Under the pieces are notes generated by a model, which worked only from the letters and a program-made list of their open reading frames with translations, did no database searches and was not told where the DNA came from. A program made the translations under genes and the position numbers. Source: Mucidula mucida (taxonomy: Eukaryota > Basidiomycota > Agaricomycetes > Agaricales > Physalacriaceae). Taken from it: a stretch of 64,000 nt of DNA. Shown in pieces: positions 1,708 to 30,182 of this stretch; the stretch's first letter is position 1; each line of letters starts with the position of its first letter. The stretch lies in assembly GCA_015501055.1 (NCBI GenBank), contig JADNYV010000166.1, positions 1 to 64,000 on the forward strand, read 5' to 3'.

Positions 1708-5069
<3,362 letters not shown>

Positions 5070-6165: not shown

Positions 6166-6312
6166 AATGCGTTGTTCAAATCCGAGTCATTAGCATTGTG
6201 ATTCGGTTAATGGAAATGTTAGATCCCTCGTGCCGCAGCGGTCCGATTTTCGCTGAGTCCACACGGAGGTAATGCTAGCGAAATTCAATGCGTCCACACC
6301 TCGAGTCCACGT
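6166..6312 (+). promoter_or_regulatory. displaced distal promoter of the FunK1 gene at 9050
   Basis: The sequence matches the region between OMT tail and FunK1 promoter at 61,636-61,790 and 13,560-13,750, including CTCGTGCCGCAGCGGTCC and CACACGGAGGTAATGCTAG. It is cut off from its gene by the helicase element that starts at 6313, and continues at 8864. Confidence 0.65.
6304..6312. repeat. 9-bp target-site duplication AGTCCACGT (partner at 8864-8872)
   Basis: AGTCCACGT ends directly before TAGTCTG at 6313 and is repeated directly after AGACTA at 8864-8872. The paralogous promoter near 13,736-13,745 carries a single AGTCCACGT followed by CCACAGACCG, i.e. the empty site. Confidence 0.85.
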
Positions 6313-6439
6313 TAGTCTGATTTCAAACACCGGTCCCTTGCCGGGCCTCAAATTTTTAGTCCCGTGCATATCATGTGATGTAGTTACCCAGGGTTTGAAA
6401 ATAAATTAGCGCGACGGCCTCCATCTCAGATCGCCTCTC

Positions 6440-8534
6440 ATGGCTGCTTCTAACGCGTCAACATCGACATTTCGATTTGATTCTCTCGAGGGAAGAAGGA
6501 TATGTCGGGAATTGGCCCGTCCATATCTGAATTACGATCCTCACGACTATTCACTTGACGTCGGTGTCAAAATCATCGATGGCATCGATTGCTTGGTCCG
6601 AGCAGCTTGCGGCTCCGGCAAGACTGGTATCATGGCTCTCCTAGCTATAGTTCTCAAGAAGCTCGGAGATGACCCGACAATATATCCCTCCAAAACTATC
6701 CATCCACTGGTCGAAGACCCGGTTATCCTAGTGATCTGCCCCACCAACGCACTTGAGCAGGATCTAGTATGTATACATGGCCTTCAAGTAAGAAGTTCTC
6801 TCTGATACCTTCCTCCAGGAGAAGAAGCTCTGTATGTTCGGCATCCAGGCAGTGGCCGTGAACGCTGTTCTCACTGAGAAAGTGCGCACGGATCCTAGTG
6901 CTGATGGAGATATCTGGGACCTCGCGAAGGAAGCCACTGTTGTCCTTCTGTCACCAGAAATGTTGGAAGGAGATAAATCTCGCAACTGTTTTGATGATCC
7001 ATCCTTTCGGTCCCGTTTGTCCTTGCTTGTCGTTGATGAAGCACATCTGGTGTATGTATGGTCGAAGCTCTTCCGAAAGGCATATGGACGGATTGGTTAT
7101 ACACGAGCTCGTCTTGACAGTCGAGTTAGACTGCTCCTTCTTAGTGCAACACTTCGAGCAGGCGCCCCGTACAACGCAGTCATGAAATCATTCTCATTGA
7201 CGAAAGGATCATTCTTCGACCTTCACCGTTCCAATCTCAGACCAGAGATCCGCGTGACAACATCCATTATTCATTCACCTTTGAAAACCTCTCTCTCCTT
7301 CCCCGAACTTCGTTGGATTGTTGGGCTTCCCGGTATTTCTATCATCTTCACTCGCGATCGTAATCTTGCCTTGCGTATTGCCCTCTATCTCAAACTGGTT
7401 TCACCCGCATATGCCAGTACTATCCGCAAATGTGATGCGACAAACGAGTCGGACTATGATGACGAGACATTCAAAAGAGTCTTTGAAGACTGCAGTACAT
7501 CGAGCACTGGCCTTGTTCTTGTTGCGACGACCATCCTCACTCTGGGAATCGACATTCCGAATATCCAGCGTGTTTGCATTATAGACCCTATCGAACTTGA
7601 CGATGAGGTTTAACAAAAAGGTCGTCTTCTGCGGAAGAAGGTTGCAGGAGCCATTGCCGAGGCATATGTTTATGTCTCGCCAACTACGATGGTGCGCGCT
7701 GCGGAGATGGTTGCAGATGACAAGGCCGGTGTTCTTCGAAAGAAGGATAGCGAAACAAAGGAGGAGACGAAGGGCCTTAGCCTGAGTATGGCATATCGAC
7801 TTGTTGCTCCGTGTCAAAGCATTGAACAGGACCGTCAATATGACAATCCTGTCCTCGACCCACCATGTTTTTGCGAGTCGTGTTCGACGTTCATTGTGCC
7901 AGATGAACCTCCTCCGTGTCTATGCAGCGGGTGTCAGCCTGGTAAATGCGACAGGGATTGGATTATCGAACATCGTACCAGAATTGGACAAGCTGGGAAG
8001 AAAGCAGCTGAACAGGCCATCACGAAAATCCCGTACCTTCAAGGCATCTTGGCTGTTTCCTTGGTCCCGCGTCGCGGTATCGTGGAAAAGCCTATGCGCG
8101 ATTACCTGATAGAACGTCTTCATATCCTCCGGATAACGATGTTTGATCATCCTGCCGAGCTGTATACGCGTGGCGGGTTCTATACACCGGAGGACCTCAT
8201 TCCGGATGCTGTTATCGTCATCATCCTCGACAATTTCTTTGCTTTAACTACGGCTCATGTTCTCCACGAGTACACAAAAGCATACCAGCTTATGTGGGAT
8301 TGGGTCGACTGCATATTCACAGACATACGCGACAGTATTCCGCATCTGCTTAGCATCCATATGGAGACAGCTCAAGCGGAGAAGGTCAAGAGGCAGGCTG
8401 CCTCAGATAAAGCTAAGGAGAAACGGCGCGACGAGCGGGCACTGAAAACAGGAATTAGAAAGCATCTGCCGATACCGGATAAGCCAGATGGGTTTCGGGG
8501 ACAGCGATGGCGTTGGACCTTTCCAAACGGGTGA
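6440..8534 (+). pseudogene. RecQ-like DEAH helicase, copy A, stopped at motif VI
   Basis: Exon 1 is 6440-6766, the intron 6767-6818, exon 2 starts 6819. The product has Walker A (CGSGKTG), a motif Ia-like PTNALEQDL, DEAH (VVDEAH), motif III (LLSATL) and TILTLGIDIPN (motif V). A TAA at 7611-7613 replaces the CAA found in copy C, so translation ends just before motif VI (QQKGRLLRK). The rest of the frame, with a Cys-rich segment (CFCESC...CLCSGC) and a basic C-terminus, remains open to 8534. The truncated 368-residue product would lack the arginine finger and probably ATPase-driven unwinding. RecQ-type helicases unwind DNA 3' to 5'; the role here is unknown. Confidence 0.8.
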
Positions 8535-8808
8535 GAGCATAGCTGATGAATTAAGATAACATACTAATGATATAACATTAGAAAACAAACAACAGTAACT
8601 CTGAAATTGTGAGAAGTCTAGTAGTATGTGGACGATTTTGGGACTCGCCCGAGTCCATAAATATGAGGAGATGTACGGAAACAAGCAGCTAACGCTGTAA
8701 AACCGCGAGCGGAAAATCATCACGTGTTGCTTCCCCAAAAGGCGATTGGTCCCAAAAAGGCGATTGAATTGCAAATTCCGAGGCCCCGTAAGCACGCCGC
8801 GTTTGGAA

Positions 8809-8850
8809 GCAGACTCTATATACGCTTGTTCTCAAGCGTTTTGAGTCTGC
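8809..8850. other. nested hairpin at the 3' end of element A
   Basis: GCAGACTC (8809-8816) pairs with GAGTCTGC (8843-8850). Inside, ACGCTTG (8822-8828) pairs with CAAGCGT (8833-8839) around a TTCT loop. The same structure is at 19,470-19,511 and 30,119-30,160. It could act as a helicase-gene terminator or as a transposition end signal. Confidence 0.75.
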
Positions 8851-8872
8851 CTAGGGGAGACTAAGTCCACGT

Positions 8873-9049
8873 CCACAGACCGAATGCGGCAAAAGTGTCC
8901 AAATCGGGTAGCTGTGACTGGCATCCCATTGTGACACTTCGATCATTTGAACTTGTCCACTACCAATCTGGACGCGAACAAAGAGGCGCGTCGTCGTGCT
9001 ATAAAAGGGTGAGATCTTTGTCTCTTCGTTTCCCCATCACTTTCTCATC
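8873..9049 (+). promoter_or_regulatory. core promoter of FunK1 A1 with TATA box
   Basis: TATAAAAG lies at 9000-9007, 43 bp before the ATG at 9050. The block GACCGAATGCGGCAAAAGTG (about 8879-8898) and CATCCCATTGTGACA are nearly identical in front of all six FunK1 starts in the window, so the proximal promoter is conserved with the gene. Confidence 0.75.
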
Positions 9050-11737
9050 ATGCCGACTTCCCGCCAGCATCGGACCGCGCCCGGGAGACTACTTTCGACA
9101 CCGCGCAAAGGGACCAGGATGTCCCAACCAGGAGCTGCTACGCTCAAACTCGAGGATCAGCGCTTACATTGGAAGGAGTCTAGTGCTGGAAACACCGTTC
9201 AAGTCCCCGTTGAAACCTTCCTTGCCCATTATACCAATCTTCTTCACTCTCAGCGAGACACCGATGACCTGGTCTCCCACATTGAAGAAGGGCTCAAGGC
9301 AAAGCCTAAGACTTCGAACGGGGAGACAAAGCCTAGGACTTTGAACAAGGATGGCTGGGCCGCAACAAACTTTATAGGTCCTCACGAAGACACAGTTTTC
9401 AAGGGACTGGAGGGCATTGCAGAGGAGATCCACTCCCATTGCGAAACATGGAATAAGACGAAGCAGCATCCCAAGCTCCAGCAGCGCACGACTCGTCTCA
9501 TTTGTCAACCGAATCATACAACGGCTTCTGAGGTTCGTGGAGGATCTATGAAGACAGATGCCCGCTTCATCCTCAATGAAATCGTCTCCGATGAGAACGT
9601 TCCGACCTCGGCAGCTGTCGCTCCTGCTGAGTTCAAGACTCGCATGAACCCTAAGAATCAGATAGATGTATGTCTTTGGGCTTTACTGTGTTGACTCGTT
9701 TTGACCTGCGTTTTAGAACGAAAGCAAAATTATTGGAGCCGTCGGTCACATACTCTACAATGATCCGTGTCGACGCTCTGTGATCGCTTTCACCATCGAG
9801 GATCGTCTGATGCGCTTCTGGTACTTTTCGAGATCACACATCGCTGTATCCGCTCAATTCGATTATCACGCGGTGAGTTGATTTGTGCGCGTTTATATTT
9901 CGCTCTCTTATGCTTTATCTCAGAATCCCAGGCTCTTCATTCGTTTCGTCATCTTTATGACCTTTGCTTCTCTCGAAGATCTCGGTTACGATCCCACCGT
10001 TGAACGCGTTCGAGTCGGCGACTCGAAGAAAATTCAGTATCGCTTCACCATTGGCGACAAAGTGTACCAGACCACGGGGATCATTTATGAATTAAATCTC
10101 GACCTTGTCACTCGTGCCACGCGGGTATGGTCAGTTGTAGAGCTCGACTCCAACTACCTGGCAATCGGCACGCCCAAGGTGTTGAAGGACGTTTGGCTAT
10201 ACTTCGACGCAACACCGGAGTCGGACATCTACAACGCAATCTTCGCAGCCCTTCGGCAATTGGATGAAGATGGCAGCGTCCCCGAGAACGAGCGTCCTCC
10301 TCCGTTGCAGTCAGGCTCCTCCCTGGAGCAGGACGCGAAGCACTATTTCATGACGATCGTTTCAGACTCAGTGGTCATGATAAACGGCCAGCCGGACGAG
10401 GCACAAGAGCCACCGGCAGGTTACCTCGAGTTCTTCTATACCGAAGAAGAGGATAAGTTCGCGATGGAGGCTGCTCTAGAGGGCACTCAGCGCGGGGACG
10501 TCGACGGTAATACACCTACACTAAAGAGGGCAGATGGAGAGGCATATCCCCACAAGAAAAGGACGCATCGGCGAATTGTCTTTGCGGAGTTGTGCCACAC
10601 GCTCTACAGGGTCTCAACCTACGCCGCCTTTACGAAGGGACTGGCACAGCTTGTCTATGGTAATGTTCGAACAGTGCACTCTCTTCGACAGAGCTGACGC
10701 AGTTCTTTTATAGGTCTCGAATACATGCGCTTAGCGGGCTTTGTTCATCGCGATATCAGTCCCGGAAATTGCCTCATTTTCGAAGGCCAAACGAAGATCT
10801 CTGACCTTGAATATACCCGCCCGTATGCTGCTCCGGGCCATGGCGCTGCCCCCCTTACCGTATGTGCCCCTGTCAAACCTTCCAAAGCGTACGACTCACT
10901 GAGTATTAGGGCACTCCGGGCTTTATGGCAGTGGAGTATCAGATGCAGAAACATGAATTCAAACCAAAAGCCGTAAGGCATATCCTCCGCGGGGTCTCAC
11001 GGTTGCCCCAGCCTGCTCCGTGGTTCAGGTTCAACTTTCTCCATGACCTGGAGTCCGTCATTTGGATTTACCTTTGGTTCTTACTGGAAACTCTCCCGGA
11101 GTCATTCACCCCGTCCGAGATTGACCAGCATCGTATCCCTATCTTAATCCTCCGTCATAGGCTGTTCGACGGCTCCCTCAAAGCCTCTACTGAGCGTCTA
11201 GACTTCATCCTAGATTGCTCTACGGACGAATGGTGCGAGTATGATAACGTTATGGATGTTCTTAAAGCGGTGTTTGGCTCCGAATCCAAGATACCCGAAG
11301 GCTTGCAATCTTTTGCGTACCTGGCTGGCTGTTACACGGCGGTGGAATCGTCGAAGCCGCTTTGTCCAGAGTCGCCACACATGGCGCACTGGGATCGTAA
11401 AGTGTTCTTGCACGAGTACTACGAGGAGATTCACTCATACTTCATGGACGCGCACAATCACATCACAGACACGACTGAGAAAGCGCTGCCGATCAGGTAC
11501 ACTGAACAGGAGCGGCAGCACCGAGCTCAGCAGGCTGCAGGCGCCTCGAAGACTGGTTCCAACAAAAGGCCTCGGACTGGTACGGGCCGGGACAGTGAGG
11601 CGTATGTGCCGCCTGTACGGGAAGATGAAGACGATGATGATGATGAGGCGGAGGGGGAGAGGGCAGCGTCGCCGACGGAAGAGAGCCAAGATCGGAAGCA
11701 AAGAGGAAGAGAACCGTTCGGAAGCAGATTTTCTTGA
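9050..11737 (+). CDS. FunK1-type protein kinase-like protein A1 (827 aa, 5 exons)
   Basis: Exons: 9050-9667, 9717-9872, 9924-10659, 10714-10859, 10910-11737. All borders are GT..AG and the frame is continuous. Residues about 1-250 are a FunK1-type N-terminal region; VLKDVWLYFDATPESD in exon 3 matches the family's Lys-Asp-x-Trp N-lobe element. The catalytic loop HRDISPGN is at about 515-522 (Asp517, Asn522), the metal site SDLEYTR starts near 533 (Asp534), and GTPGFMAVE (553-561) is the APE-like segment. The tail has NKRPRT and long acidic runs, suggesting nuclear location. Compared with the copy at 36,927, one A is missing near 11,700, so the last residues differ (KQRGREPFGSRFS instead of a basic end). 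The substrate of FunK1 kinases is unknown. The helicase element sits in its promoter. Confidence 0.85.
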
Positions 11738-12046
11738 AAAGTGGTCGCTTATATACTAGATTTCTCCCAAGTGTTCCCTTGTATTCATGGTATATATGTT
11801 CACGTATGGCATGTCTGTTTCATGACTGCGTGATGCTCATCGCCTCAAGCTTTCGGACCATGCCACTGGCATCTGAAAAGTTCTTGTATTTCAAACTATT
11901 TGGCGTGTTCTGGCTGCTGAAGGAGATACAGAGAGCCGACACGACGTTGCTTGATTTAGATTTATTTATTGTCTTGAATCGACAGCTCAAGCTCAAGCTT
12001 CGTATCTGTCCTCTCCACTTTCGTCAACAGTCCTTACACTTAACTG
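11738..12046 (+). other. FunK1 3' flank, no gene
   Basis: This sequence is shared with 22,398-22,706, 31,366-31,700 and 39,612-40,150. It holds the gene's 3' UTR (run GTGGTCGCTTATATACTAGA) and ends in the module shared with the GMC 3' flank. Short ORFs here are not supported. Confidence 0.6.
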
Positions 12047-12870
12047 AGACTGACTATAACCTCAACAAGGGCGCGGCGAATCGGCGAAGCATTTTCTACA
12101 ACGTCGGGAAATCGTTATATATGAATTCGAGACTACACCGACTTCACATTTGTGTTGACTCAGTTGGTTCAAGGTAAAATCACTGGAGCCTCCCGCCAAG
12201 AAGAATAAGGCTCCATGGTTCAGATTCAACTTTCTCTATGACCTCGAGTCTGTCCTTTGTATCTCTGGTTCTTACTAGACACTCTCCAGGAACAGTTCAC
12301 GCCGGCGGAGTGCAGCCTGCACCGTACCGGGCCTCGCATATGCCTCAAGCGGACGCTGCTTGCTGGGGACTCCCTCCGTATTCCGGTTGACCGTATATTG
12401 TTCATGCAAGTTTGCCAGGAAGGCGTGAGGTTTTAGTGCTATGATGAAATCATCAGCGCTCTTATGGCGTGGACTCCAAGCTACCCAAAGCCTTGCAGTC
12501 CTTCTACTGTCTGGCCGGCTGTTATGGTGAGGTGGAGTCGTCGAAATCACTTCTTCCAGAGTCGCCAGGATGTGACGCACTGGGACCGTAAAGTGTTTTT
12601 GCACGAGTACTATCAGGACATCTACACTTACTTTATGGATGCGCACAAAGACACGACTGAGAAAGCGCTCTCAATTCGGGACATTGGCCACTGGGAGGAG
12701 AAGCACAGGGCTCAGCAGGGGCCAAACAAAAGGCCTCAAACTGCTCCGGACCAGTGCAATGAGGCGTACATACCGCCTGTTCGGGAGGAGGAGGGACTCA
12801 GAGCCACCGTCACCGACTGAAGAGAGCCAAGGTCAGAAGACAAAAAGGAAAAGAGACGGTCGGAAGTAGA
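12047..12870 (+). pseudogene. FunK1 fragment (C-terminal half, decayed)
   Basis: It begins at GAGACTGACTATAACC, followed by the equivalent of the late exon-3 region (NKGAANRRSIFYNVGKSLY). Then it jumps to a C-lobe piece (APWFRFNFLYDLESVL) that meets stops. From about 12,550 it reads THWDRKVFLHEYYQDIYTYF, KRPQTAPDQCNEAYIPPVRE, the usual FunK1 tail. The catalytic exon (HRD) is absent. The paralog at 40,630-42,505 has the same gross structure. Confidence 0.75.
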
Positions 12871-12989
12871 TTTCCTCGAATAGCCATCTCTGTCCATATT
12901 CCTTCCTAGTACATGCTGTTGTATTCATTGTATATGTGCACCTATTGACTTTCTCTTTGAGTGTCTTCTTGACTATCATCAAATAATCG

Positions 12990-13240
12990 ACTGAAAAGCG
13001 CTGCCGATCCAGTACACTGATCAGGAGAAGCTCAGGGCTCCGAGTCAGCAGGCCGCGCGCCCTCCCAATGCGGGGACCCCGAACAAAAGGCCTCGGACTA
13101 TTATGAACCGGGACAGTGATAAATATGCACCGCCTGTGCGGGAAGACGGAGACGGAGATGAGGATTCAGAGGAGCCGCCGTCACCGACCGAAGAGAGCCA
13201 AGTCAGGAAGACGAAGAAAAAGATACTCGGTCTCAGATAG
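12990..13240 (+). pseudogene. FunK1 C-terminal tail fragment
   Basis: The piece reads EKALPIQYTDQEKLR, TPNKRPRTIMNRDSDKYAPP, VREDGDGDEDSEEPPSPTEE and a basic end, which is the FunK1 tail without the kinase domain. It lies between a larger FunK1 fragment and the OMT tail that precedes the next intact FunK1. Confidence 0.7.
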
Positions 13241-13384
13241 ATTCCTTCAATAGGCATCCTTCTCTCGTATATATTTCTCTCAATGTGCTCTTGTATTTCT
13301 TGTATAGTGTCCATGATTAGTTATCATATTCTCTTTGGATGACTGTGTCATTTGGGTGGGAGCGTGGGTAATCTTCATGGTCGT

Positions 13385-13552
13385 ACTCAATGTCCATGTT
13401 CAATGGCCAAGAAAGGACACTGCCTCAGTTCGAGGCTTCCAGCGATTGTTTGAGGAGAGGGGCTGGAGGCCGGAGAGCGTGAAGCGCTCTTCAATGTCAT
13501 ACCAATCTTTCATTGTTGTAGTTCCTTCAGATGTACCTACGAATTCAGAATG
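13385..13552 (+). pseudogene. O-methyltransferase 3' tail upstream of FunK1 A2
   Basis: The segment reads FNGQERTLPE-like sequence broken by an indel, then RLFEERGWRPESVKRSSMSY, QSFIVVVPSDVPTNSE. It is homologous to 61,475-61,620. Several 1-bp indels distinguish it from the tandem partner at 24,040. Confidence 0.65.
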
Positions 13553-13559
13553 TATTGTT

Positions 13560-13927
13560 GGTATCCGAGTCCTTAGCATTGTGATTCCTTCATATGGCCA
13601 ATGGTGATCCCTCGGCCCGCAGTGGTCCAATTTTCGCTGGGGAGGAACCGGCATTCTTGTGCGCCCATTGTCCACCCGGAGGTAATACTACAGAATCCCT
13701 CCGCAGGTATCACAGTAACAATGCGTCCACACCTCCAGTCCACGTCCACAGACCGAATGCGGCAAAAGTGTCCAAATCGGGTAGCCGTGACTGCCATCCC
13801 ATTGTGACAATTCGATCATTTCAAATTTGAACTCGTCCACTACCAATCTGGACGCGAACAAAGAGGCGGTCGTCGTGCTATAAAAGCGTGGGTTTCGGTT
13901 TCTCTGTTTCCCCATCACTTTCTCATC
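13560..13927 (+). promoter_or_regulatory. promoter of FunK1 A2 with TATA box; empty site for the helicase element
   Basis: TATAAAAG is at 13,879-13,886, followed by the start at 13,928. At about 13,736-13,745 the single AGTCCACGT followed by CCACAGACCG is the uninterrupted form of the site into which the helicase element is inserted upstream of A1. Confidence 0.75.
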
Positions 13928-16590
13928 ATGCCGACTTTACCCCAGCATCAAACCGCGCCCGGGAGACTACTTTCGACGCCGCGCAAAGCGACCAGGATGT
14001 CCCAACCAGGAGCTGCCACGCTCAACCTCGGCGAGCAACGTTTACATTTGAAGGAGTCTAGTGGTGGGAACACTGTTGAGGTTCCCGCTGAAACCTTCCT
14101 TGCCCACTATGCCAATCTCCTTCACTCTCAGCGAGACACCGATGACCTGGTCTCTCACATTGAAACAGGGCTGAAGGCAACGCCTGAGGATCAAAAGCCT
14201 CAGACCTTGAGCCGGAATGGCTGGACCGCAACAAACTTCATAGGTCCTAACGAAGATACAGTTTTCAAGGGACTGGCGGGCGTTGCAGAGGAGATCTACA
14301 CCCATTGCCAGACATGGAACGAGACGAAGCAGCATCCCAAGCTCCAGCAGCGCACGACTCGTCTCATTTGTCAACCGAATCATACCACGGCTTCTGAGGT
14401 TCGTGGAGGATCTATGAAGACAGATGCGCGTTTCATCCTCAATGAAATCGGCGACGATGTGCATGTGCCGACCTCGGCAGCTGTCGCTCCTGCTGAGTTC
14501 AAGACTCGCATGAACCCTAAGAATCAGATAGATGTATGTCTTTGGGCTTTACTGTGTTGACTCGTTTTGACCTGCGTTTTAGAACGAAAGCAAGGTTCTT
14601 GGAGCCGTCGGTCACATACTCTACAATGATCCCTGTCGACGCTTTGTGATTGCCTTCACCATTGAGGATCGTATGATGCGCTTCTGGTACTTTTCGAGAT
14701 CGCACATCGCTGTAACTGCTCAATTCGATTATCACGCGGTGAGTTGATTTACGCGCGTCTCTTTTTCGCTCTCTTACGCTTTGTCTCAGAATCCCAGGCT
14801 CTTCATTCGCTTTGTCATCTACATGACTTTCGCCTCCCTCGAAGACCTTGGATACGACCCCACCGTTCAGCGCATTCACGTTAGCGAAGAGGACATTCAA
14901 TATCGCTTCACCGTAGGCGACAAGGTCTATCAGACCATTCGGATTATCCATGAACTGAATCTGGACATTGTCACTCGTGCTACGCGGGTATGGGAAGTCA
15001 TAGAGCTCGATTCTGAAGACATGCCCATCGGTGAAAGCCAGGTTTTGAAGGACGTTTGGCTTTACTTTGACGCAACACCGGAGTCGGACATCTACAACGA
15101 GATCTTCGCGGCCCTTCGGCAATTGGATGCAGATGGCAGCGTCTCGGAAAGCGAGCGTCCTCCTCCATTGCAGCAAGGTTCCTCTTTGGAGGAGGATGCG
15201 AAACGTTATTTCATGAACATCATTTCCGACTCCGTTGTCACGGTCAATGGACGGGCCGATGAGGCGCGGGAACCCCCAACAGGGTATACCGAGTTCTTCT
15301 ATACAGAACTTGATGAGGAACAAGTCGCCATGGATGCTGTCATTGTCGCCGCTCAGAGAGGAGATGTCGATGGTTGTACGCCTAAACCAAAGACCAACAA
15401 AGCATACGTATACCCGCACAAGGCCAGGATACATCGACAAGTCATCTTTTTGGAAGTGTGCGAAACGCTTTACAAGGTTTTCTCGTACTCCAAATTCGCC
15501 TTGGGATTGGCTCAACTTGTCCACGGTACTTCTTCAACATTTCACTTTTTCCTATGGAGCTGACATTCTTTTCAGGACTAGCATACTTGCGGTTGGCAGG
15601 ATTCGTTCATCGTGACATTAGCCCCGGAAATTGCCTAATTTACGAAGGGCAAATGAAGATCTCTGACCTCGAGTATGCCCGCAAGTACATCAGTCAAGGG
15701 AAAAATATCACTCCACTGACGGTATGTCAAGTTCTCCTTAAAGTGAAGAATCACTGCTGACAGGTTGGTAGGGTACTCCGGGCTTCATGGCTGTGGAGTA
15801 TCAGCGCGGACAGTATATGTTCCAGGTGGGGGGCGGCCGCAAAGCCAATTTGGACTTATATTCCCGGAAGACTCCTTCGACAATCCGTTTCCAATTCAAT
15901 TTCCTCCATGACCTTGAGTCCGTCATTTGGATTTATATTTGGTTGTTGTTGGAGACGGTCCCAGGATACCTTACGAAAATCGAGGAAGACGCCCAACGCG
16001 ACAATATCCTTCGCCTTCGCCACAAACTCTTTGATGGCTCCCTAGAGGGTTCCGGCGACCGTTTTGGCTTCATTCAAAGTCTCACGCAAGACGAGACTAT
16101 ACGCTTTGATGAAGCCTGGGATACCCTATCGCCGCTGTATGGGGACGATTCCGCTCTGCTCATCGGTCTCAATAGCTTTCTACATCTTGCCAACTGCTAT
16201 GCAGAAGTCGAGAGTCTGCCGCGTCAAAGCGTCCTTCCAGGCTCCATGAATTGGGCCCCAACATGCTTCGTGCACAGGTATTATGCGCAGTTGCACGCGC
16301 TCTTTATGCATGTTCACGAGCAAATGAAGACGACGATCTACAGAGCGCGCCCTTTCCGATACATCGCGAACGAAGTAACGGATGCTGTGCGACCCCAGAA
16401 ACACCGCGTTAATGGCCACACGCAGGACGTACCGAACAAAAGGCATCGGTCACTCGCCGCCGATGACGCGTATGTGCCGGTGCGGGAGCAAGAGGAAGAG
16501 GAAGACCTTGACACACCGTCTTCTCCAACGGCGAATATTCAACAACGCCCGAAGAGGAACCTGCCGCTAAGGAAGAAAGGCGGTCATTAG
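13928..16590 (+). CDS. FunK1-type protein kinase-like protein A2 (820 aa, 5 exons)
   Basis: Exons: 13928-14533, 14583-14738, 14790-15525, 15576-15721, 15772-16590; all frames join. It is a diverged paralog of A1. It keeps VLKDVWLYFDATPESD, HRDISPGN (about 511-518), KISDLEYAR and GTPGFMAVEYQ (from about 549). The C-terminus is shorter and less acidic (EQEEEEDLDTPSS, then basic NLPLRKKGGH). There are no visible defects. An internal open frame of 335 codons on the minus strand (14,517-15,524) is a shadow of exon 3. Likely an active kinase of unknown substrate. Confidence 0.85.
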
Positions 16591-16974
16591 CTTTCCCACA
16601 CAGTATTCTCTTATATACTCAACTACTTTCTACATATGAAATCATGTTCTCTTTCTTTTCCAACTCCCTGTACACATAGAAATGTACGTATGCATGCAGT
16701 GTAGTCGACGAGCCGGGCTAGGCTGCCAGTGGCCGACGCGACGCTGAATATATCAGGCCATGTGACTTGACCGCTTTGTTCTCTTCTCAGTTTTCCTCCC
16801 TTTGTTCAAGACTCGCAAACTCTTGCTCCTTGCCCAAACTAGATATGTGTTCTCGTTTCGCAGCGTTCACCCCTCATATTTCACAGCGAGGTCTATAACT
16901 TGGTAGCACAGAAATCACGCCAAACGCAGACGGTTAGTGGCTACTGGTGAATGATTCCTGAGACTGACTATAAT
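16591..16974. other. 3' flank of FunK1 A2, no gene
   Basis: No coding sequence is recognised. It ends with GAGACTGACTATAAT, whose last nine bases (16,966-16,974) equal the target-site duplication of element copy C. The tandem-duplication junction is at 16,974/16,975. Confidence 0.5.
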
Positions 16975-19524
16975 TAGTCTGATTTCAAACACCGGTCCCT
17001 TGCCGGGCCTCAAATTTTTAGTCCCGTGCATATCATGTGATGTAGTTACCCAGGGTTTGAAAATAAATTAGCGCGACGGCCTCCATCTCAGATCGCCTCT
17101 CATGGCTGCTTCTAACGCGTCAACATCGACATTTCGATTTGATTCTCTCGAGGGAAGAAGGATATGTCGGGAATTGGCCCGTCCATATCTGAATTACGAT
17201 CCTCACGACTATTCACTTGACGTCGGTGTCAAAATCATCGATGGCATCGATTGCTTGGTCCGAGCAGCTTGCGGCTCCGGCAAGACTGGTATCATGGCTC
17301 TCCTAGCTATAGTTCTCAAGAAGCTCGGAGATGACCCGACAATATATCCCTCCAAAACTATCCATCCACTGGTCGAAGACCCGGTTATCCTAGTGATCTG
17401 CCCCACCAACGCACTTGAGCAGGATCTAGTATGTATACATGGCCTTCAAGTAAGAAGTTCTCTCTGATACCTTCCTCCAGGAGAAGAAGCTCTGTATGTT
17501 CGGCATCCAGGCAGTGGCCGTGAACGCTGTTCTCACTGAGAAAGTGCGCACGGATCCTAGTGCTGATGGAGATATCTGGGACCTCGCGAAGGAAGCCACT
17601 GTTGTCCTTCTGTCACCAGAAATGTTGGAAGGAGATAAATCTCGCAACTGTTTTGATGATCCATCCTTTCGGTCCCGTTTGTCCTTGCTTGTCGTTGATG
17701 AAGCACATCTGGTGTATGTATGGTCGAAGCTCTTCCGAAAGGCATATGGACGGATTGGTTATACACGAGCTCGTCTTGACAGTCGAGTTAGACTGCTCCT
17801 TCTTAGTGCAACACTTCGAGCAGGCGCCCCGTACAACGCAGTCATGAAATCATTCTCATTGACGAAAGGATCATTCTTCGACCTTCACCGTTCCAATCTC
17901 AGACCAGAGATCCGCGTGACAACATCCATTATTCATTCACCTTTGAAAACCTCTCTCTCCTTCCCCGAACTTCGTTGGATTGTTGGGCTTCCCGGTATTT
18001 CTATCATCTTCACTCGCGATCGTAATCTTGCCTTGCGTATTGCCCTCTATCTCAAACTGGTTTCACCCGCATATGCCAGTACTATCCGCAAATGTGATGC
18101 GACAAACGAGTCGGACTATGATGACGAGACATTCAAAAGAGTCTTTGAAGACTGCAGTACATCGAGCACTGGCCTTGTTCTTGTTGCGACGACCATCCTC
18201 ACTCTGGGAATCGACATTCCGAATATCCAGCGTGTTTGCATTATAGACCCTATCGAACTTGACGATGAGGTTAACAAAAAGGTCGTCTTCTGCGGAAGAA
18301 GGTTGCAGGAGCCATTGCCGAGGCATATGTTTATGTCTCGCCAACTACGATGGTGCGCGCTGCGGAGATGGTTGCAGATGACAAGGCCGGTGTTCTTCGA
18401 AAGAAGGATAGCGAAACAAAGGAGGAGACGAAGGGCCTTAGCCTGAGTATGGCATATCGACTTGTTGCTCCGTGTCAAAGCATTGAACAGGACCGTCAAT
18501 ATGACAATCCTGTCCTCGACCCACCATGTTTTTGCGAGTCGTGTTCGACGTTCATTGTGCCAGATGAACCTCCTCCGTGTCTATGCAGCGGGTGTCAGCC
18601 TGGTAAATGCGACAGGGATTGGATTATCGAACATCGTACCAGAATTGGACAAGCTGGGAAGAAAGCAGCTGAACAGGCCATCACGAAAATCCCGTACCTT
18701 CAAGGCATCTTGGCTGTTTCCTTGGTCCCGCGTCGCGGTATCGTGGAAAAGCCTATGCGCGATTACCTGATAGAACGTCTTCATATCCTCCGGATAACGA
18801 TGTTTGATCATCCTGCCGAGCTGTATACGCGTGGCGGGTTCTATACACCGGAGGACCTCATTCCGGATGCTGTTATCGTCATCATCCTCGACAATTTCTT
18901 TGCTTTAACTACGGCTCATGTTCTCCACGAGTACACAAAAGCATACCAGCTTATGTGGGATTGGGTCGACTGCATATTCACAGACATACGCGACAGTATT
19001 CCGCATCTGCTTAGCATCCATATGGAGACAGCTCAAGCGGAGAAGGTCAAGAGGCAGGCTGCCTCAGATAAAGCTAAGGAGAAACGGCGCGACGAGCGGG
19101 CACTGAAAACAGGAATTAGAAAGCATCTGCCGATACCGGATAAGCCAGATGGGTTTCGGGGACAGCGATGGCGTTGGACCTTTCCAAACGGGTGAGAGCA
19201 TAGCTGATGAATTAAGATAACATACTAATGATATAACATTAGAAAACAAACAACAGTAACTCTGAAATTGTGAGAAGTCTAGTAGTATGTGGACGATTTT
19301 GGGACTCGCCCGAGTCCATAAATATGAGGAGATGTACGGAAACAAGCAGCTAACGCTGTAAAACCGCGAGCGGAAAATCATCACGTGTTGCTTCCCCAAA
19401 AGGCGATTGGTCCCAAAAAGGCGATTGAATTGCAAATTCCGAGGCCCCGTAAGCACGCCGCGTTTGGAAGCAGACTCTATATACGCTTGTTCTCAAGCGT
19501 TTTGAGTCTGCCTAGGGGAGACTA
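16975..19524 (+). mobile_element. helicase-bearing element, copy B (hybrid flanks, 2,550 bp)
   Basis: The same TAGTCT...AGACTA ends as copy A are present. The left flank is GACTATAAT (16,966-16,974), as for copy C. The right flank is AGTCCACGT (19,525-19,533), as for copy A. So it has no duplication of its own, as expected for a crossover product between two inserted copies. Confidence 0.8.
17102..19195 (+). pseudogene. RecQ-like DEAH helicase, copy B, frameshifted at motif VI
   Basis: Exon 1 is 17102-17428, the intron 17429-17480, exon 2 starts 17481. Motifs are as in the other copies (CGSGKTG, DEAH, LLSATL). One base is missing at about 18,271-18,273 (GAGGTTAAC against GAGGTTCAAC in copy C). 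After DDEV the frame therefore shifts into NKKVVFCGRRL and runs to a stop at 18,446 without motif VI. The original frame resumes as an open stretch to 19,195. The damage affects the same codon that is a stop in copy A. Confidence 0.8.
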
Positions 19525-19533
19525 AGTCCACGT

Positions 19534-19710
19534 CCACAGACCGAATGCGGCAAAAGTGTCCAAATCGGGTAGCTGTGACTGGCATCCCATTGTGACACTT
19601 CGATCATTTGAACTTGTCCACTACCAATCTGGACGCGAACAAAGAGGCGCGTCGTCGTGCTATAAAAGGGTGAGATCTTTGTCTCTTCGTTTCCCCATCA
19701 CTTTCTCATC
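19534..19710 (+). promoter_or_regulatory. core promoter of FunK1 B1
   Basis: Identical in sequence to the promoter at 8873-9049; TATAAAAG at 19,661-19,668. Confidence 0.75.
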
Positions 19711-22397
19711 ATGCCGACTTCCCGCCAGCATCGGACCGCGCCCGGGAGACTACTTTCGACACCGCGCAAAGGGACCAGGATGTCCCAACCAGGAGCTGCT
19801 ACGCTCAAACTCGAGGATCAGCGCTTACATTGGAAGGAGTCTAGTGCTGGAAACACCGTTCAAGTCCCCGTTGAAACCTTCCTTGCCCATTATACCAATC
19901 TTCTTCACTCTCAGCGAGACACCGATGACCTGGTCTCCCACATTGAAGAAGGGCTCAAGGCAAAGCCTAAGACTTCGAACGGGGAGACAAAGCCTAGGAC
20001 TTTGAACAAGGATGGCTGGGCCGCAACAAACTTTATAGGTCCTCACGAAGACACAGTTTTCAAGGGACTGGAGGGCATTGCAGAGGAGATCCACTCCCAT
20101 TGCGAAACATGGAATAAGACGAAGCAGCATCCCAAGCTCCAGCAGCGCACGACTCGTCTCATTTGTCAACCGAATCATACAACGGCTTCTGAGGTTCGTG
20201 GAGGATCTATGAAGACAGATGCCCGCTTCATCCTCAATGAAATCGTCTCCGATGAGAACGTTCCGACCTCGGCAGCTGTCGCTCCTGCTGAGTTCAAGAC
20301 TCGCATGAACCCTAAGAATCAGATAGATGTATGTCTTTGGGCTTTACTGTGTTGACTCGTTTTGACCTGCGTTTTAGAACGAAAGCAAAATTATTGGAGC
20401 CGTCGGTCACATACTCTACAATGATCCGTGTCGACGCTCTGTGATCGCTTTCACCATCGAGGATCGTCTGATGCGCTTCTGGTACTTTTCGAGATCACAC
20501 ATCGCTGTATCCGCTCAATTCGATTATCACGCGGTGAGTTGATTTGTGCGCGTTTATATTTCGCTCTCTTATGCTTTATCTCAGAATCCCAGGCTCTTCA
20601 TTCGTTTCGTCATCTTTATGACCTTTGCTTCTCTCGAAGATCTCGGTTACGATCCCACCGTTGAACGCGTTCGAGTCGGCGACTCGAAGAAAATTCAGTA
20701 TCGCTTCACCATTGGCGACAAAGTGTACCAGACCACGGGGATCATTTATGAATTAAATCTCGACCTTGTCACTCGTGCCACGCGGGTATGGTCAGTTGTA
20801 GAGCTCGACTCCAACTACCTGGCAATCGGCACGCCCAAGGTGTTGAAGGACGTTTGGCTATACTTCGACGCAACACCGGAGTCGGACATCTACAACGCAA
20901 TCTTCGCAGCCCTTCGGCAATTGGATGAAGATGGCAGCGTCCCCGAGAACGAGCGTCCTCCTCCGTTGCAGTCAGGCTCCTCCCTGGAGCAGGACGCGAA
21001 GCACTATTTCATGACGATCGTTTCAGACTCAGTGGTCATGATAAACGGCCAGCCGGACGAGGCACAAGAGCCACCGGCAGGTTACCTCGAGTTCTTCTAT
21101 ACCGAAGAAGAGGATAAGTTCGCGATGGAGGCTGCTCTAGAGGGCACTCAGCGCGGGGACGTCGACGGTAATACACCTACACTAAAGAGGGCAGATGGAG
21201 AGGCATATCCCCACAAGAAAAGGACGCATCGGCGAATTGTCTTTGCGGAGTTGTGCCACACGCTCTACAGGGTCTCAACCTACGCCGCCTTTACGAAGGG
21301 ACTGGCACAGCTTGTCTATGGTAATGTTCGAACAGTGCACTCTCTTCGACAGAGCTGACGCAGTTCTTTTATAGGTCTCGAATACATGCGCTTAGCGGGC
21401 TTTGTTCATCGCGATATCAGTCCCGGAAATTGCCTCATTTTCGAAGGCCAAACGAAGATCTCTGACCTTGAATATACCCGCCCGTATGCTGCTCCGGGCC
21501 ATGGCGCTGCCCCCTTACCGTATGTGCCCCTGTCAAACCTTCCAAAGCGTACGACTCACTGAGTATTAGGGCACTCCGGGCTTTATGGCAGTGGAGTATC
21601 AGATGCAGAAACATGAATTCAAACCAAAAGCCGTAAGGCATATCCTCCGCGGGGTCTCACGGTTGCCCCAGCCTGCTCCGTGGTTCAGGTTCAACTTTCT
21701 CCATGACCTGGAGTCCGTCATTTGGATTTACCTTTGGTTCTTACTGGAAACTCTCCCGGAGTCATTCACCCCGTCCGAGATTGACCAGCATCGTATCCCT
21801 ATCTTAATCCTCCGTCATAGGCTGTTCGACGGCTCCCTCAAAGCCTCTACTGAGCGTCTAGACTTCATCCTAGATTGCTCTACGGACGAATGGTGCGAGT
21901 ATGATAACGTTATGGATGTTCTTAAAGCGGTGTTTGGCTCCGAATCCAAGATACCCGAAGGCTTGCAATCTTTTGCGTACCTGGCTGGCTGTTACACGGC
22001 GGTGGAATCGTCGAAGCCGCTTTGTCCAGAGTCGCCACACATGGCGCACTGGGATCGTAAAGTGTTCTTGCACGAGTACTACGAGGAGATTCACTCATAC
22101 TTCATGGACGCGCACAATCACATCACAGACACGACTGAGAAAGCGCTGCCGATCAGGTACACTGAACAGGAGCGGCAGCACCGAGCTCAGCAGGCTGCAG
22201 GCGCCTCGAAGACTGGTTCCAACAAAAGGCCTCGGACTGGTACGGGCCGGGACAGTGAGGCGTATGTGCCGCCTGTACGGGAAGATGAAGACGATGATGA
22301 TGATGAGGCGGAGGGGGAGAGGGCAGCGTCGCCGACGGAAGAGAGCCAAGATCGGAAGCAAAGAGGAAGAGAACCGTTCGGAAGCAGATTTTCTTGA
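19711..22397 (+). pseudogene. FunK1-type kinase-like B1, one-base deletion in exon 4
   Basis: This is the tandem copy of A1. Exons: 19711-20328, 20378-20533, 20585-21320, 21375-21519, 21570-22397. The run of six C near the end of exon 4 in A1 is five C here (about 21,510-21,514), which shifts the frame after the HRDISPGN and SDLEYTR motifs and before GTPGFMAVE. Unless splicing compensates, the C-lobe is lost. A homopolymer deletion in a near-perfect duplicate may be a consensus error, so the gene could be intact in the organism. Confidence 0.75.
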
Positions 22398-22706
22398 AAA
22401 GTGGTCGCTTATATACTAGATTTCTCCCAAGTGTTCCCTTGTATTCATGGTATATATGTTCACGTATGGCATGTCTGTTTCATGACTGCGTGATGCTCAT
22501 CGCCTCAAGCTTTCGGACCATGCCACTGGCATCTGAAAAGTTCTTGTATTTCAAACTATTTGGCGTGTTCTGGCTGCTGAAGGAGATACAGAGAGCCGAC
22601 ACGACGTTGCTTGATTTAGATTTATTTATTGTCTTGAATCGACAGCTCAAGCTCAAGCTTCGTATCTGTCCTCTCCACTTTCGTCAACAGTCCTTACACT
22701 TAACTG

Positions 22707-23530
22707 AGACTGACTATAACCTCAACAAGGGCGCGGCGAATCGGCGAAGCATTTTCTACAACGTCGGGAAATCGTTATATATGAATTCGAGACTACACCG
22801 ACTTCACATTTGTGTTGACTCAGTTGGTTCAAGGTAAAATCACTGGAGCCTCCCGCCAAGAAGAATAAGGCTCCATGGTTCAGATTCAACTTTCTCTATG
22901 ACCTCGAGTCTGTCCTTTGTATCTCTGGTTCTTACTAGACACTCTCCAGGAACAGTTCACGCCGGCGGAGTGCAGCCTGCACCGTACCGGGCCTCGCATA
23001 TGCCTCAAGCGGACGCTGCTTGCTGGGGACTCCCTCCGTATTCCGGTTGACCGTATATTGTTCATGCAAGTTTGCCAGGAAGGCGTGAGGTTTTAGTGCT
23101 ATGATGAAATCATCAGCGCTCTTATGGCGTGGACTCCAAGCTACCCAAAGCCTTGCAGTCCTTCTACTGTCTGGCCGGCTGTTATGGTGAGGTGGAGTCG
23201 TCGAAATCACTTCTTCCAGAGTCGCCAGGATGTGACGCACTGGGACCGTAAAGTGTTTTTGCACGAGTACTATCAGGACATCTACACTTACTTTATGGAT
23301 GCGCACAAAGACACGACTGAGAAAGCGCTCTCAATTCGGGACATTGGCCACTGGGAGGAGAAGCACAGGGCTCAGCAGGGGCCAAACAAAAGGCCTCAAA
23401 CTGCTCCGGACCAGTGCAATGAGGCGTACATACCGCCTGTTCGGGAGGAGGAGGGACTCAGAGCCACCGTCACCGACTGAAGAGAGCCAAGGTCAGAAGA
23501 CAAAAAGGAAAAGAGACGGTCGGAAGTAGA
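22707..23530 (+). pseudogene. FunK1 fragment, tandem copy
   Basis: Same as 12,047-12,870: late exon-3 remnant, C-lobe piece with stops, then THWDRKVFLHEYYQDIYTYF and the tail. The preceding 22,398-22,706 is the non-coding FunK1 3' flank. Confidence 0.75.
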
Positions 23531-23649
23531 TTTCCTCGAATAGCCATCTCTGTCCATATTCCTTCCTAGTACATGCTGTTGTATTCATTGTATATGTGCA
23601 CCTATTGACTTTCTCTTTGAGTGTCTTCTTGACTATCATCAAATAATCG

Positions 23650-23897
23650 ACTGAAAAGCGCTGCCGATCCAGTACACTGATCAGGAGAAGCTCAGGGCTC
23701 CGAGTCAGCAGGCCGCGCGCCCTCCCAATGCGGGGACCCCGAACAAAAGGCCTCGGACTATTATGAACCGGGACAGTGATAAATATGCACCGCCTGTGCG
23801 GGAAGACGGAGACGGAGATGAGGATTCAGAGGAGCCGCCGTCACCGACCGAAGAGAGCCAAGTCAGGAAGACGAAGAAAGATACTCGTCTCAGATAG
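23650..23897 (+). pseudogene. FunK1 tail fragment, tandem copy
   Basis: Counterpart of 12,990-13,240. Its end differs by several 1-2 bp deletions (GAAAAAGATACTCGG in unit 1, GAAAGATACTCG here). Confidence 0.65.
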
Positions 23898-24029
23898 ATT
23901 CCTCAATAGGCATCCTTCTCTCGTATATATTTCTCTCAATGTGCTCTTGTATTTCTTGTATAGTGTCCATGATTAGTTATCATATTCTTTGGATGACTGT
24001 GTCATTGGGTGGAGCGTGGGTAATCTTCA

Positions 24030-24205
24030 TGTCGTACTCAATGTCCATGTTCAATGGCCAAGAAAGGACACTGCCTCAGTCGAGGCTTCCAGCGATTGTT
24101 GAGGAGAGGGGCTGGAGGCCGGAGAGCGTGAAGCGCTCTTCAATGTCATACCAATCTTTCATTGTTGTAGTTCCTTCAGATGTACCTACGAATTCAGAAT
24201 GTATT
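24030..24205 (+). pseudogene. O-methyltransferase 3' tail upstream of FunK1 B2
   Basis: Counterpart of 13,385-13,552. It reads MFNGQERTLPQ, then a frame change, then EERGWRPESVKRSSMSYQSF. Confidence 0.65.
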
Positions 24206-24575
24206 GTTGGTATCCGAGTCCTTAGCATTGTGATTCCTTCATATGGCCAATGGTGATCCCTCGGCCCGCAGTGGTCCAATTTTCGCTGGGAGGAACCGGC
24301 ATTCTTGTGCGCCCATTGTCCACCCGGAGGTAATACTACAGAATCCCTCCGCAGGTATCACAGTAACAATGCGTCCACACCTCCAGTCCACGTCCACAGA
24401 CCGAATGCGGCAAAAGTGTCCAAATCGGGTAGCCGTGACTGCCATCCCATTGTGACAATTCGATCATTTCAAATTTGAACTCGTCCACTACCAATCTGGA
24501 CGCGAACAAAGAGGCGGTCGTCGTGCTATAAAAGCGTGGGTTTCGGTTTCTCTGTTTCCCCATCACTTTCTCATC
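24206..24575 (+). promoter_or_regulatory. promoter of FunK1 B2
   Basis: TATAAAAG at 24,527-24,534; otherwise as in front of A2. Confidence 0.75.
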
Positions 24576-27238: not shown

Positions 27239-27622
27239 CTTTCCCACACAGTATTCTCTTATATACTCAACTACTTTCTACATATGAAATCATGTTCTCT
27301 TTCTTTTCCAACTCCCTGTACACATAGAAATGTACGTATGCATGCAGTGTAGTCGACGAGCCGGGCTAGGCTGCCAGTGGCCGACGCGACGCTGAATATA
27401 TCAGGCCATGTGACTTGACCGCTTTGTTCTCTTCTCAGTTTTCCTCCCTTTGTTCAAGACTCGCAAACTCTTGCTCCTTGCCCAAACTAGATATGTGTTC
27501 TCGTTTCGCAGCGTTCACCCCTCATATTTCACAGCGAGGTCTATAACTTGGTAGCACAGAAATCACGCCAAACGCAGACGGTTAGTGGCTACTGGTGAAT
27601 GATTCCTGAGACTGACTATAAT
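27239..27622. other. 3' flank of FunK1 B2, no gene
   Basis: Copy of 16,591-16,974. The last nine bases (27,614-27,622, GACTATAAT) are the left target-site duplication of element copy C. Confidence 0.5.
27614..27622. repeat. 9-bp target-site duplication GACTATAAT (partner at 30174-30182)
   Basis: GACTATAAT precedes TAGTCTG at 27,623 and is repeated right after AGACTA at 30,174-30,182. The related FunK1 fragment at 12,047 has one GACTATAAC at the equivalent place. Confidence 0.85.
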
Positions 27623-30173
27623 TAGTCTGATTTCAAACACCGGTCCCTTGCCGGGCCTCAAATTTTTAGTCCCGTGCATATCATGTGATGTAGTTACCCA
27701 GGGTTTGAAAATAAATTAGCGCGACGGCCTCCATCTCAGATCGCCTCTCATGGCTGCTTCTAACGCGTCAACATCGACATTTCGATTTAATTCTCTCGAG
27801 GGAAGAAGGATATGTCGGGAATTGGCCCGTCCATATCTGAATTACGATCCTCACGACTATTCACTTGACGTCGGTGTCAAAATCATCGATGGCATCGATT
27901 GCTTGGTCCGAGCAGCTTGCGGCTCCGGCAAGACTGGTATCATGGCTCTCCTAGCTATAGTTCTCAAGAAGCTCGGAGATGACCCGACAATATATCCCTC
28001 CAAAACTATCCATCCACTGGTCGAAGACCCGGTTATCCTAGTGATCTGCCCCACCAACGCACTTGAGCAGGATCTAGTATGTATACATGGCCTTCAAGTA
28101 AGAAGTTCTCTCTGATACCTTCCTCCAGGAGAAGAAGCTCTGTATGTTCGGCATCCAGGCAGTGGCCGTGAACGCTGTTCTCACTGAGAAAGTGCGCACG
28201 GATCCTAGTGCTGATGGAGATATCTGGGACCTCGCGAAGGAAGCCACTGTTGTCCTTCTGTCACCAGAAATGTTGGAAGGAGATAAATCTCGCAACTGTT
28301 TTGATGATCCATCCTTTCGGTCCCGTTTGTCCTTGCTTGTCGTTGATGAAGCACATCTGGTGTATGTATGGTCGAAGCTCTTCCGAAAGGCATATGGACG
28401 GATTGGTTATACACGAGCTCGTCTTGACAGTCGAGTTAGACTGCTCCTTCTTAGTGCAACACTTCGAGCAGGCGCCCCGTACAACGCAGTCATGAAATCA
28501 TTCTCATTGACGAAAGGATCATTCTTCGACCTTCACCGTTCCAATCTCAGACCAGAGATCCGCGTGACAACATCCATTATTCATTCACCTTTGAAAACCT
28601 CTCTCTCCTTCCCCGAACTTCGTTGGATTGTTGGGCTTCCCGGTATTTCTATCATCTTCACTCGCGATCGTAATCTTGCCTTGCGTATTGCCCTCTATCT
28701 CAAACTGGTTTCACCCGCATATGCCAGTACTATCCGCAAATGTGATGCGACAAACGAGTCGGACTATGATGACGAGACATTCAAAAGAGTCTTTGAAGAC
28801 TGCAGTACATCGAGCACTGGCCTTGTTCTTGTTGCGACGACCATCCTCACTCTGGGAATCGACATTCCGAATATCCAGCGTGTTTGCATTATAGACCCTA
28901 TCGAACTTGACGATGAGGTTCAACAAAAAGGTCGTCTTCTGCGGAAGAAGGTTGCAGGAGCCATTGCCGAGGCATATGTTTATGTCTCGCCAACTACGAT
29001 GGTGCGCGCTGCGGAGATGGTTGCAGATGACAAGGCCGGTGTTCTTCGAAAGAAGGATAGCGAAACAAAGGAGGAGACGAAGGGCCTTAGCCTGAGTATG
29101 GCATATCGACTTGTTGCTCCGTGTCAAAGCATTGAACAGGACCGTCAATATGACAATCCTGTCCTCGACCCACCATGTTTTTGCGAGTCGTGTTCGACGT
29201 TCATTGTGCCAGATGAACCTCCTCCGTGTCTATGCAGCGGGTGTCAGCCTGGTAAATGCGACAGGGATTGGATTATCGAACATCGTACCAGAATTGGACA
29301 AGCTGGGAAGAAAGCAGCTGAACAGGCCATCACGAAAATCCCGTACCTTCAAGGCATCTTGGCTGTTTCCTTGGTCCCGCGTCGCGGTATCGTGGAAAAG
29401 CCTATGCGCGATTACCTGATAGAACGTCTTCATATCCTCCGGATAACGATGTTTGATCATCCTGCCGAGCTGTATACGCGTGGCGGGTTCTATACACCGG
29501 AGGACCTCATTCCGGATGCTGTTATCGTCATCATCCTCGACAATTTCTTTGCTTTAACTACGGCTCATGTTCTCCACGAGTACACAAAAGCATACCAGCT
29601 TATGTGGGATTGGGTCGACTGCATATTCACAGACATACGCGACAGTATTCCGCATCTGCTTAGCATCCATATGGAGACAGCTCAAGCGGAGAAGGTCAAG
29701 AGGCAGGCTGCCTCAGATAAAGCTAAGGAGAAACGGCGCGACGAGCGGGCACTGAAAACAGGAATTAGAAAGCATCTGCCGATACCGGATAAGCCAGATG
29801 GGTTTCGGGGACAGCGATGGCGTTGGACCTTTCCAAACGGGTGAGAGCATAGCTGATGAATTAAGATAACATACTAATGATATAACATTAGAAAACAAAC
29901 AACAGTAACTCTGAAATTGTGAGAAGTCTAGTAGTATGTGGACGATTTTGGGACTCGCCCGAGTCCATAAATATGAGGAGATGTACGGAAACAAGCAGCT
30001 AACGCTGTAAAACCGCGAGCGGAAAATCATCACGTGTTGCTTCCCCAAAAGGCGATTGGTCCCAAAAAGGCGATTGAATTGCAAATTCCGAGGCCCCGTA
30101 AGCACGCCGCGTTTGGAAGCAGACTCTATATACGCTTGTTCTCAAGCGTTTTGAGTCTGCCTAGGGGAGACTA
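27623..30173 (+). mobile_element. helicase-bearing element, copy C, complete and with its own 9-bp TSD (2,551 bp)
   Basis: Same termini and 3' hairpin (30,119-30,160) as copies A and B. The insertion is at the 5' edge of a FunK1 fragment: removing the element and one GACTATAAT restores the sequence that runs into ACAACAAGGGCGCGG. Its helicase gene is the only uninterrupted one. Confidence 0.85.
27750..29844 (+). CDS. RecQ-like DEAH-box helicase, intact copy C (680 aa)
   Basis: Exons: 27750-28076 and 28129-29844 (intron of 52 nt, in frame). Domain order: motif I CGSGKTG (about residue 55), PTNALEQDL, DEAH, LLSATL, a second RecA-like lobe with SIIFTRDRNLALR and VLVATTILTLGID, and motif VI QQKGRLLRK with the arginine finger. 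A Cys-rich segment follows (CFCESC, CLCSGCQPGKC), possibly a zinc-binding region in the place of RecQ-Ct, and a coiled basic C-terminus. An ATP-dependent DNA unwinding role is expected from the family. It is the only long gene in the mobile unit, so it may serve the element or be captured cargo. One D to N change (FNSLEG) differs from copies A and B. ATG context and length agree in all three copies. Confidence 0.85.
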
Positions 30174-30182
30174 GACTATAAT

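Follow-up and report, generated by a model that had tools for sequence, protein, structure and literature searches.

A RecQ-like helicase unit in Mucidula mucida is very probably a deletion derivative of a two-gene, AcademH-type transposon

AcademH is reportedly a lineage of the Academ DNA transposons, set out by Kojima in 2020 in Mob DNA 11:15. According to passages of PMC10045372, its target-site duplications measure 9 or 10 bp, against 3 or 4 bp for AcademX, a difference tied there to the presence of a helicase or of a nuclease, respectively. A passage of PMC10799480 reports AcademH in Basidiomycota, Ascomycota and Mucoromycota, in low copy number, and part of PMC8290104 reports widespread putative non-autonomous elements assigned to Academ in the mushroom Marasmius oreades. 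A RecQ helicase is also encoded by KolobokH, which a passage of PMC9587614 describes as a DNA transposon restricted to fungi. Here we analyse a 64,000-nucleotide stretch of contig JADNYV010000166.1 from the agaric Mucidula mucida (the window), in which a 2,551-bp unit with TAGTCT at its left tip and AGACTA at its right tip carries a RecQ-like helicase gene. Because a helicase together with duplications of 9–10 bp is the published mark of AcademH, we file the unit as AcademH-type. It is very probably an internally deleted, non-autonomous DNA transposon of that kind, an assignment that draws on published descriptions of AcademH. The helicase is one of the two original genes of the transposon and was not captured.

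The window contains three copies of the unit. The initial annotation had described the first of them as a TAGTCT...AGACTA unit with a perfect 9-bp duplication and a visible empty site, and both observations stand: AGTCCACGT lies on both flanks of copy 1 and occurs alone in a paralogous upstream region, where it is followed by CCACAGACCG in the single-copy form. The copies, their duplications and the empty site are as follows.

6304..6312, no strand: left target-site duplication of copy 1, AGTCCACGT (read from the sequence)
6313..8863, forward strand: element copy 1, 2,551 bp, TAGTCT...AGACTA (sequence reading and copy comparison)
8864..8872, no strand: right target-site duplication of copy 1, AGTCCACGT (read from the sequence)
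13737..13745, no strand: paralogous empty site with a single AGTCCACGT (read from the sequence)
16975..19524, forward strand: element copy 2, 2,550 bp, at the junction of a tandem duplication (left flank that of copy 3, right flank that of copy 1)
27623..30173, forward strand: element copy 3, with an open helicase frame and the duplication GACTATAAT at 27614–27622 and 30174–30182

Between copies 1 and 3, only 2 of the 2,551 positions differ. The duplication of copy 3 is, like that of copy 1, a perfect 9 bp, and the two differ in sequence, which indicates that these copies are separate insertions.

Further copies were sought in the M. mucida assembly G000 (59.9 Mb in 1,047 contigs; names in C denote contigs and names in L denote loci). 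Sixteen further loci, chosen from genome searches with the unit and with its helicase, were scanned for exact TAGTCT and AGACTA ends whose 9-bp flanks match at 7 or more positions. Nine of the 16 loci contain such a pair and seven do not. With the window copies included, the two-ended copies number 12 and the independent sites 10, since the C194 and C455 copies represent a single site and copy 2 is chimeric. These copies range from 683 to 3,405 bp in length and fall into two subfamilies, approximately 68% identical, both of which contain the helicase. The duplication is perfect at nine of the ten sites and matches at 8 of 9 positions at the tenth (C125), and its sequence varies between sites. 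The duplications exceed chance; a perfect 9-bp match is found at 0.1% of random points when approximately 80 positions are allowed per point. At six sites the copies measure 683–973 bp and lack most of the helicase, with ends unchanged and with 9-bp duplications, one of which is 8/9. The matching terminal bases number six, TAGTCT/AGACTA, and no long terminal inverted repeats are present. The initial annotation was right to see a non-autonomous element that makes 9-bp duplications, and right that it is not a Helitron.

The helicase gene of copy 1 is laid out as follows.

6440..6766, forward strand: helicase exon 1, N-terminal part of DEAD
6767–6818, forward strand: putative helicase intron, 52 bp, placed by its GT-AG ends and the reading frame
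6819..8534, forward strand: helicase exon 2, with the rest of DEAD, Helicase_C and, by eye, a Cys-rich tail; interrupted by an in-frame TAA at 7611–7613

In a Pfam search, Helicase_C scores over its curated cut-off and DEAD slightly under its own in each of two pieces; the closest solved relatives are RECQ5 (E 1e-5) and RecQ. The frame is interrupted by the in-frame TAA in copy 1, has a 1-base gap there in copy 2 and is open in copy 3.

To the right of the helicase, and facing it, each window copy retains the beginning of a second gene, located in copy 1 as follows.

8614..8658, reverse strand: remnant of the second gene (DUF6589, probable transposase), first 15 codons, MDSGESQNRPHTTRL, truncated by internal deletion (recognised from the C125 and C359 copies)

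This remnant of 15 codons, start codon included, is present in all three window copies, beginning at 19319 in copy 2 and at 29968 in copy 3, and it extends into a longer open piece in the C125 and C359 copies. The check proposed in the initial annotation, for a longer copy in which these ends enclose a transposase, succeeded in part. The C111 copy, which at 3,405 bp is the longest with TAGTCT...AGACTA ends, contains the 5′ portion of the helicase gene. Convergent with this portion, and directed toward it, are several hundred codons of the second gene; these make up the N-terminal half only. A protein search with the C111 second-gene piece, padded with X, returned two matches at E up to 1e-5 among 3,133 candidates: M. 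mucida's own protein, 100% identical over 98% of the query, and a 736-residue DUF6589 protein of Lentinula raphanica, 38% identical. The predicted model of the DUF6589 protein (predicted local distance difference test score of 88) is closest to Hermes, followed by the RAG1 and P-element transposases, and on this predicted fold the gene most likely encodes a DDE transposase. The C111, C125 and C359 pieces and the DUF6589 match together lead us to conclude that the parent had two convergent genes and that the window copies are internal deletions of the second. Within the assembly, the second gene of the window subfamily was found only as the pieces on C125 and C359, and that of the other subfamily only as pieces, in six matches to an N-terminal query. 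A full-text search for DUF6589 within one limited literature collection returned no papers. The C111 copy also contains a nested multi-copy insertion (L035, about 2700–3680), 93–99% identical to its best genomic matches and hAT-like by eye.

The pairing of the two genes was also followed in other genomes, with 19 listed helicase homologues (scored among the 7,995 candidates sharing most words) compared with 69 entries for DUF6589 homologues. For 4 of the 19 listed, the contig is the same in size as that of a DUF6589 homologue and was taken as shared: P0003/P0034, P0012/P0022 (Hymenopellis), P0014/P0023 (Paramarasmius) and P0016/P0039 (Marasmius), of which the last two pairs have consecutive locus tags. 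M. mucida itself has at least 30 listed DUF6589 matches. A distant element of 5,812 bp on C73 (L048:542–6353), with 22-bp inverted repeats and the 9-bp duplication GTTCTGATG, encodes a helicase and a convergent DUF6589 gene. A divergent and damaged two-gene element on C738 (L041:1983–6989), with 8-bp repeats, a 9-bp duplication and the 5′ sides of both genes seemingly cut, provides support for the two-gene reading, not proof of it. Both genes are present on C104, where the ends of the element were not found. C804 (L046, L047) was not taken as a full-length relative; its helicase and second-gene fragments are distant and are interspersed with other elements. Beside the old helicase and transposase fragments of these two loci are frames that resemble a tyrosine recombinase and a reverse transcriptase and look DIRS-like by eye.

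Three other origins of the unit were weighed. Kolobok transposons duplicate the target TTAA, and Helitrons make no target duplication and have TC...CTRR ends. The 9-bp duplications of varied sequence and the DUF6589 second gene fit neither, so that, despite the RecQ helicase that fungal KolobokH elements encode and the helicase that a literature passage assigns to Helitrons, there is only a slim chance that the unit belongs to KolobokH or to the Helitrons. Mutator-like elements make duplications of approximately 9 bp, encode a MULE transposase and have long terminal inverted repeats, although not in all members. The initial annotation had proposed that a non-autonomous element captured a helicase gene. 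Capture of a host gene by such an element, for example one of the Mutator kind, would suit both the size of the duplications and the finding that the helicase is the sole near-complete gene in the window copies. However, the helicase is shared by both subfamilies, which are approximately 68% identical, DUF6589 homologues are found on the contigs of 4 of the 19 listed helicase homologues, the window copies keep the start of the missing second gene, which encodes a DUF6589 protein, and the ends match over six bases and not over long repeats. Capture is slightly less probable again, and the helicase belongs instead to an ancestral transposon that encoded both it and the DUF6589 protein. Least probable is a new type of element, the other proposal of the initial annotation, here taken as transposed by the helicase only. 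Copies 1 and 3, as near-identical insertions with the helicase alone, would speak for it. Against it stand six short copies that lack most of the helicase and share their ends and duplications with the longer ones, the transposase-like predicted fold of the family's second gene, helicase frames with a stop codon in copy 1 and a 1-base gap in copy 2, and the publication of helicase DNA transposons with 9–10 bp duplications as AcademH (a passage of PMC10045372).

Within the window, the flanks of copy 2 are those expected if copies 1 and 3 recombined by unequal crossing-over to give a 10.65-kb tandem duplication. No mismatches, and 11 gap openings, separate the aligned 8.1-kb intervals 8864–16974 and 19525–27622, and the duplication of these intervals may for that reason be an assembly artefact. 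A frame at 9885–10697, inside the first interval, matches the fungal protein kinase family PF17667.

The right end of the element can fold into a strong subterminal hairpin, located as follows.

8809..8850, forward strand: right-end subterminal hairpin, outer stem GCAGACTC/GAGTCTGC

With DNA parameters, the hairpin has energies of −14.4 and −14.8 kcal/mol, one for each subfamily, and none of 200 mononucleotide shuffles is as low in either. The two subfamilies have an identical outer stem; their inner stems have different sequences and remain paired, as does that of a third type (C76/C360). Folding is weaker for three right ends of greater divergence. No folding excess was observed for the left ends, whose energies are equalled or undercut by 94 and 126 of 200 shuffles. 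The course of events can be pictured as follows. The parent very probably had short asymmetric ends, TAGTCT on the left and the hairpin plus AGACTA on the right, with the RecQ-like helicase reading inward from the left and the DUF6589 gene inward from the right. The window copies lost the second gene except for its first 15 codons and retained the helicase. The transposase of a full relative might then act in trans to join both ends, the helicase might assist their opening, insertion would proceed with a 9-bp stagger, and gap filling by the host would yield the 9-bp duplications.

A search of the same assembly with the 23-base right tip, allowing up to 3 mismatches, gave 47 matches, and the reversed control gave 0. 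Seventeen of these matches belong to two-ended, helicase-type or longer copies, some with the left end lost or unread; the other 30 reduce to 20 sites, with flank sharing judged by eye. The upstream sequence was read over approximately 1.2 kb at four sites, approximately 5 kb at C327 and approximately 80–100 bases at the rest. At the four sites and C327, the match to known elements is limited to 31–52 bases; because the reading elsewhere covers approximately 80–100 bases, some right-tip sites may be longer, divergent elements. At 5 of the 20 sites a perfect 9-bp duplication is present at the exact right boundary, 39–47 bp upstream.

C110, C405, C471 (two sites) and C505 (loci L051, L057, L058, L059 and L061): right-tip inserts of 39–47 bp with perfect duplications

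A duplication of at least 8/9 is present at that boundary at 8 of the 20 sites, whereas random points give 0.1% for perfect 9-bp matches and 1.6% for 8/9 or better. When the boundary is moved by 1 to 6 bases either way, perfect matches occur at no more than 1 of the 20 sites; the counts of 8/9 are high only beside the true boundary, at 7 and 6 for a shift of one base, and drop to 0 or 1 for shifts of five or six bases. The inserts have a fixed right boundary and no left end, and consist of part of the hairpin plus AGACTA; by reading, all five left boundaries lie within the 5′ arm of the hairpin. Three sites, C405, C471 and C61/C240, have a 40-bp form whose non-parental first base is identical; the last of them has no duplication. 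In a search with joined flanks, three of four sites have an uninterrupted second locus (C505 in C283, C471 in C460 and C110 in C132), and the two counterparts that were read directly contain a single 9-bp sequence and no insert.

These observations suggest, tentatively, that the transposition machinery of this family can insert a right tip by itself, in a one-ended and perhaps copy-in reaction of helicase plus DDE transposase that would stop at the hairpin; the proposal may well be mistaken. The main alternative is excision, in which an exact cut on the left and a break within the right-end hairpin would leave a remnant, and which would produce the same structure beside an uninterrupted counterpart. 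We lean towards one-ended insertion. In its favour we count the recurrence of the 40-bp form with its shared non-parental first base, as well as the lack of left-tip inserts among four unpaired left-end matches with up to 2 mismatches, of which C358 reads on as an ordinary copy through the 100 bases covered and the other three are chance-like. The left-end test is a weak one: it used the end of one subfamily, gave 43 matches against 51 in the reversed control and left out 28 three-mismatch matches. Several results count against the picture of right-tip inserts. The loci on C327, C949 and C237 exhibit no convincing duplication. The joined-flank search found no uninterrupted counterpart for the other C471 site, the counterparts found may be alleles or paralogues, and 12 of the 20 sites have no duplication of 8/9 or better at the standard boundary; among these 12, C242/C269 has a perfect duplication 3 bases further out. 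Intron gain by the inserts was dropped by eye, as their duplications have no consistent splice-site pattern. The listings of the literature searches, in which one-ended transposition was covered by a single query and 12 of its 29 papers, named no inserts of this type.

The helicase-only unit is a deletion derivative and mostly an ordinary relative of a known transposon type, whereas the right-tip-only inserts are the part that a specialist would not expect. Decay of a two-gene element accounts for a 'transposon' with only a helicase. Remnants, gene pairing and a predicted fold also tie DUF6589, an uncharacterised family of fungi, to transposases accompanied by a helicase. The inserts and their exact counterparts provide a handle on the role of the helicase and on whether one end suffices; if one-ended insertion is correct, they would rank with the smallest products of transposition known from any eukaryote.

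In bacteria, Tn3-type one-ended transposition likewise combines one fixed end, a variable other end and a normal target duplication, but moves fragments far larger than the 39–47 bp of the right-tip inserts. KolobokH, as described in the passage cited, shares with the present unit a RecQ helicase within a fungal DNA transposon. A TTAA duplication and a transposase of another superfamily set Kolobok elements apart. Marasmius oreades is in the same suborder as Mucidula. Its elements assigned to Academ are similarly, though putatively, non-autonomous and come from a related mushroom. Closest is AcademH, with which the unit shares, as far as the published passages describe it, a helicase in a DNA transposon, duplications of 9 or 10 bp and low copy in Basidiomycota; the described host range, animals and fungi including Basidiomycota, takes in M. 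mucida as a member of the Agaricales, and the window copies differ from AcademH in having no transposase gene.
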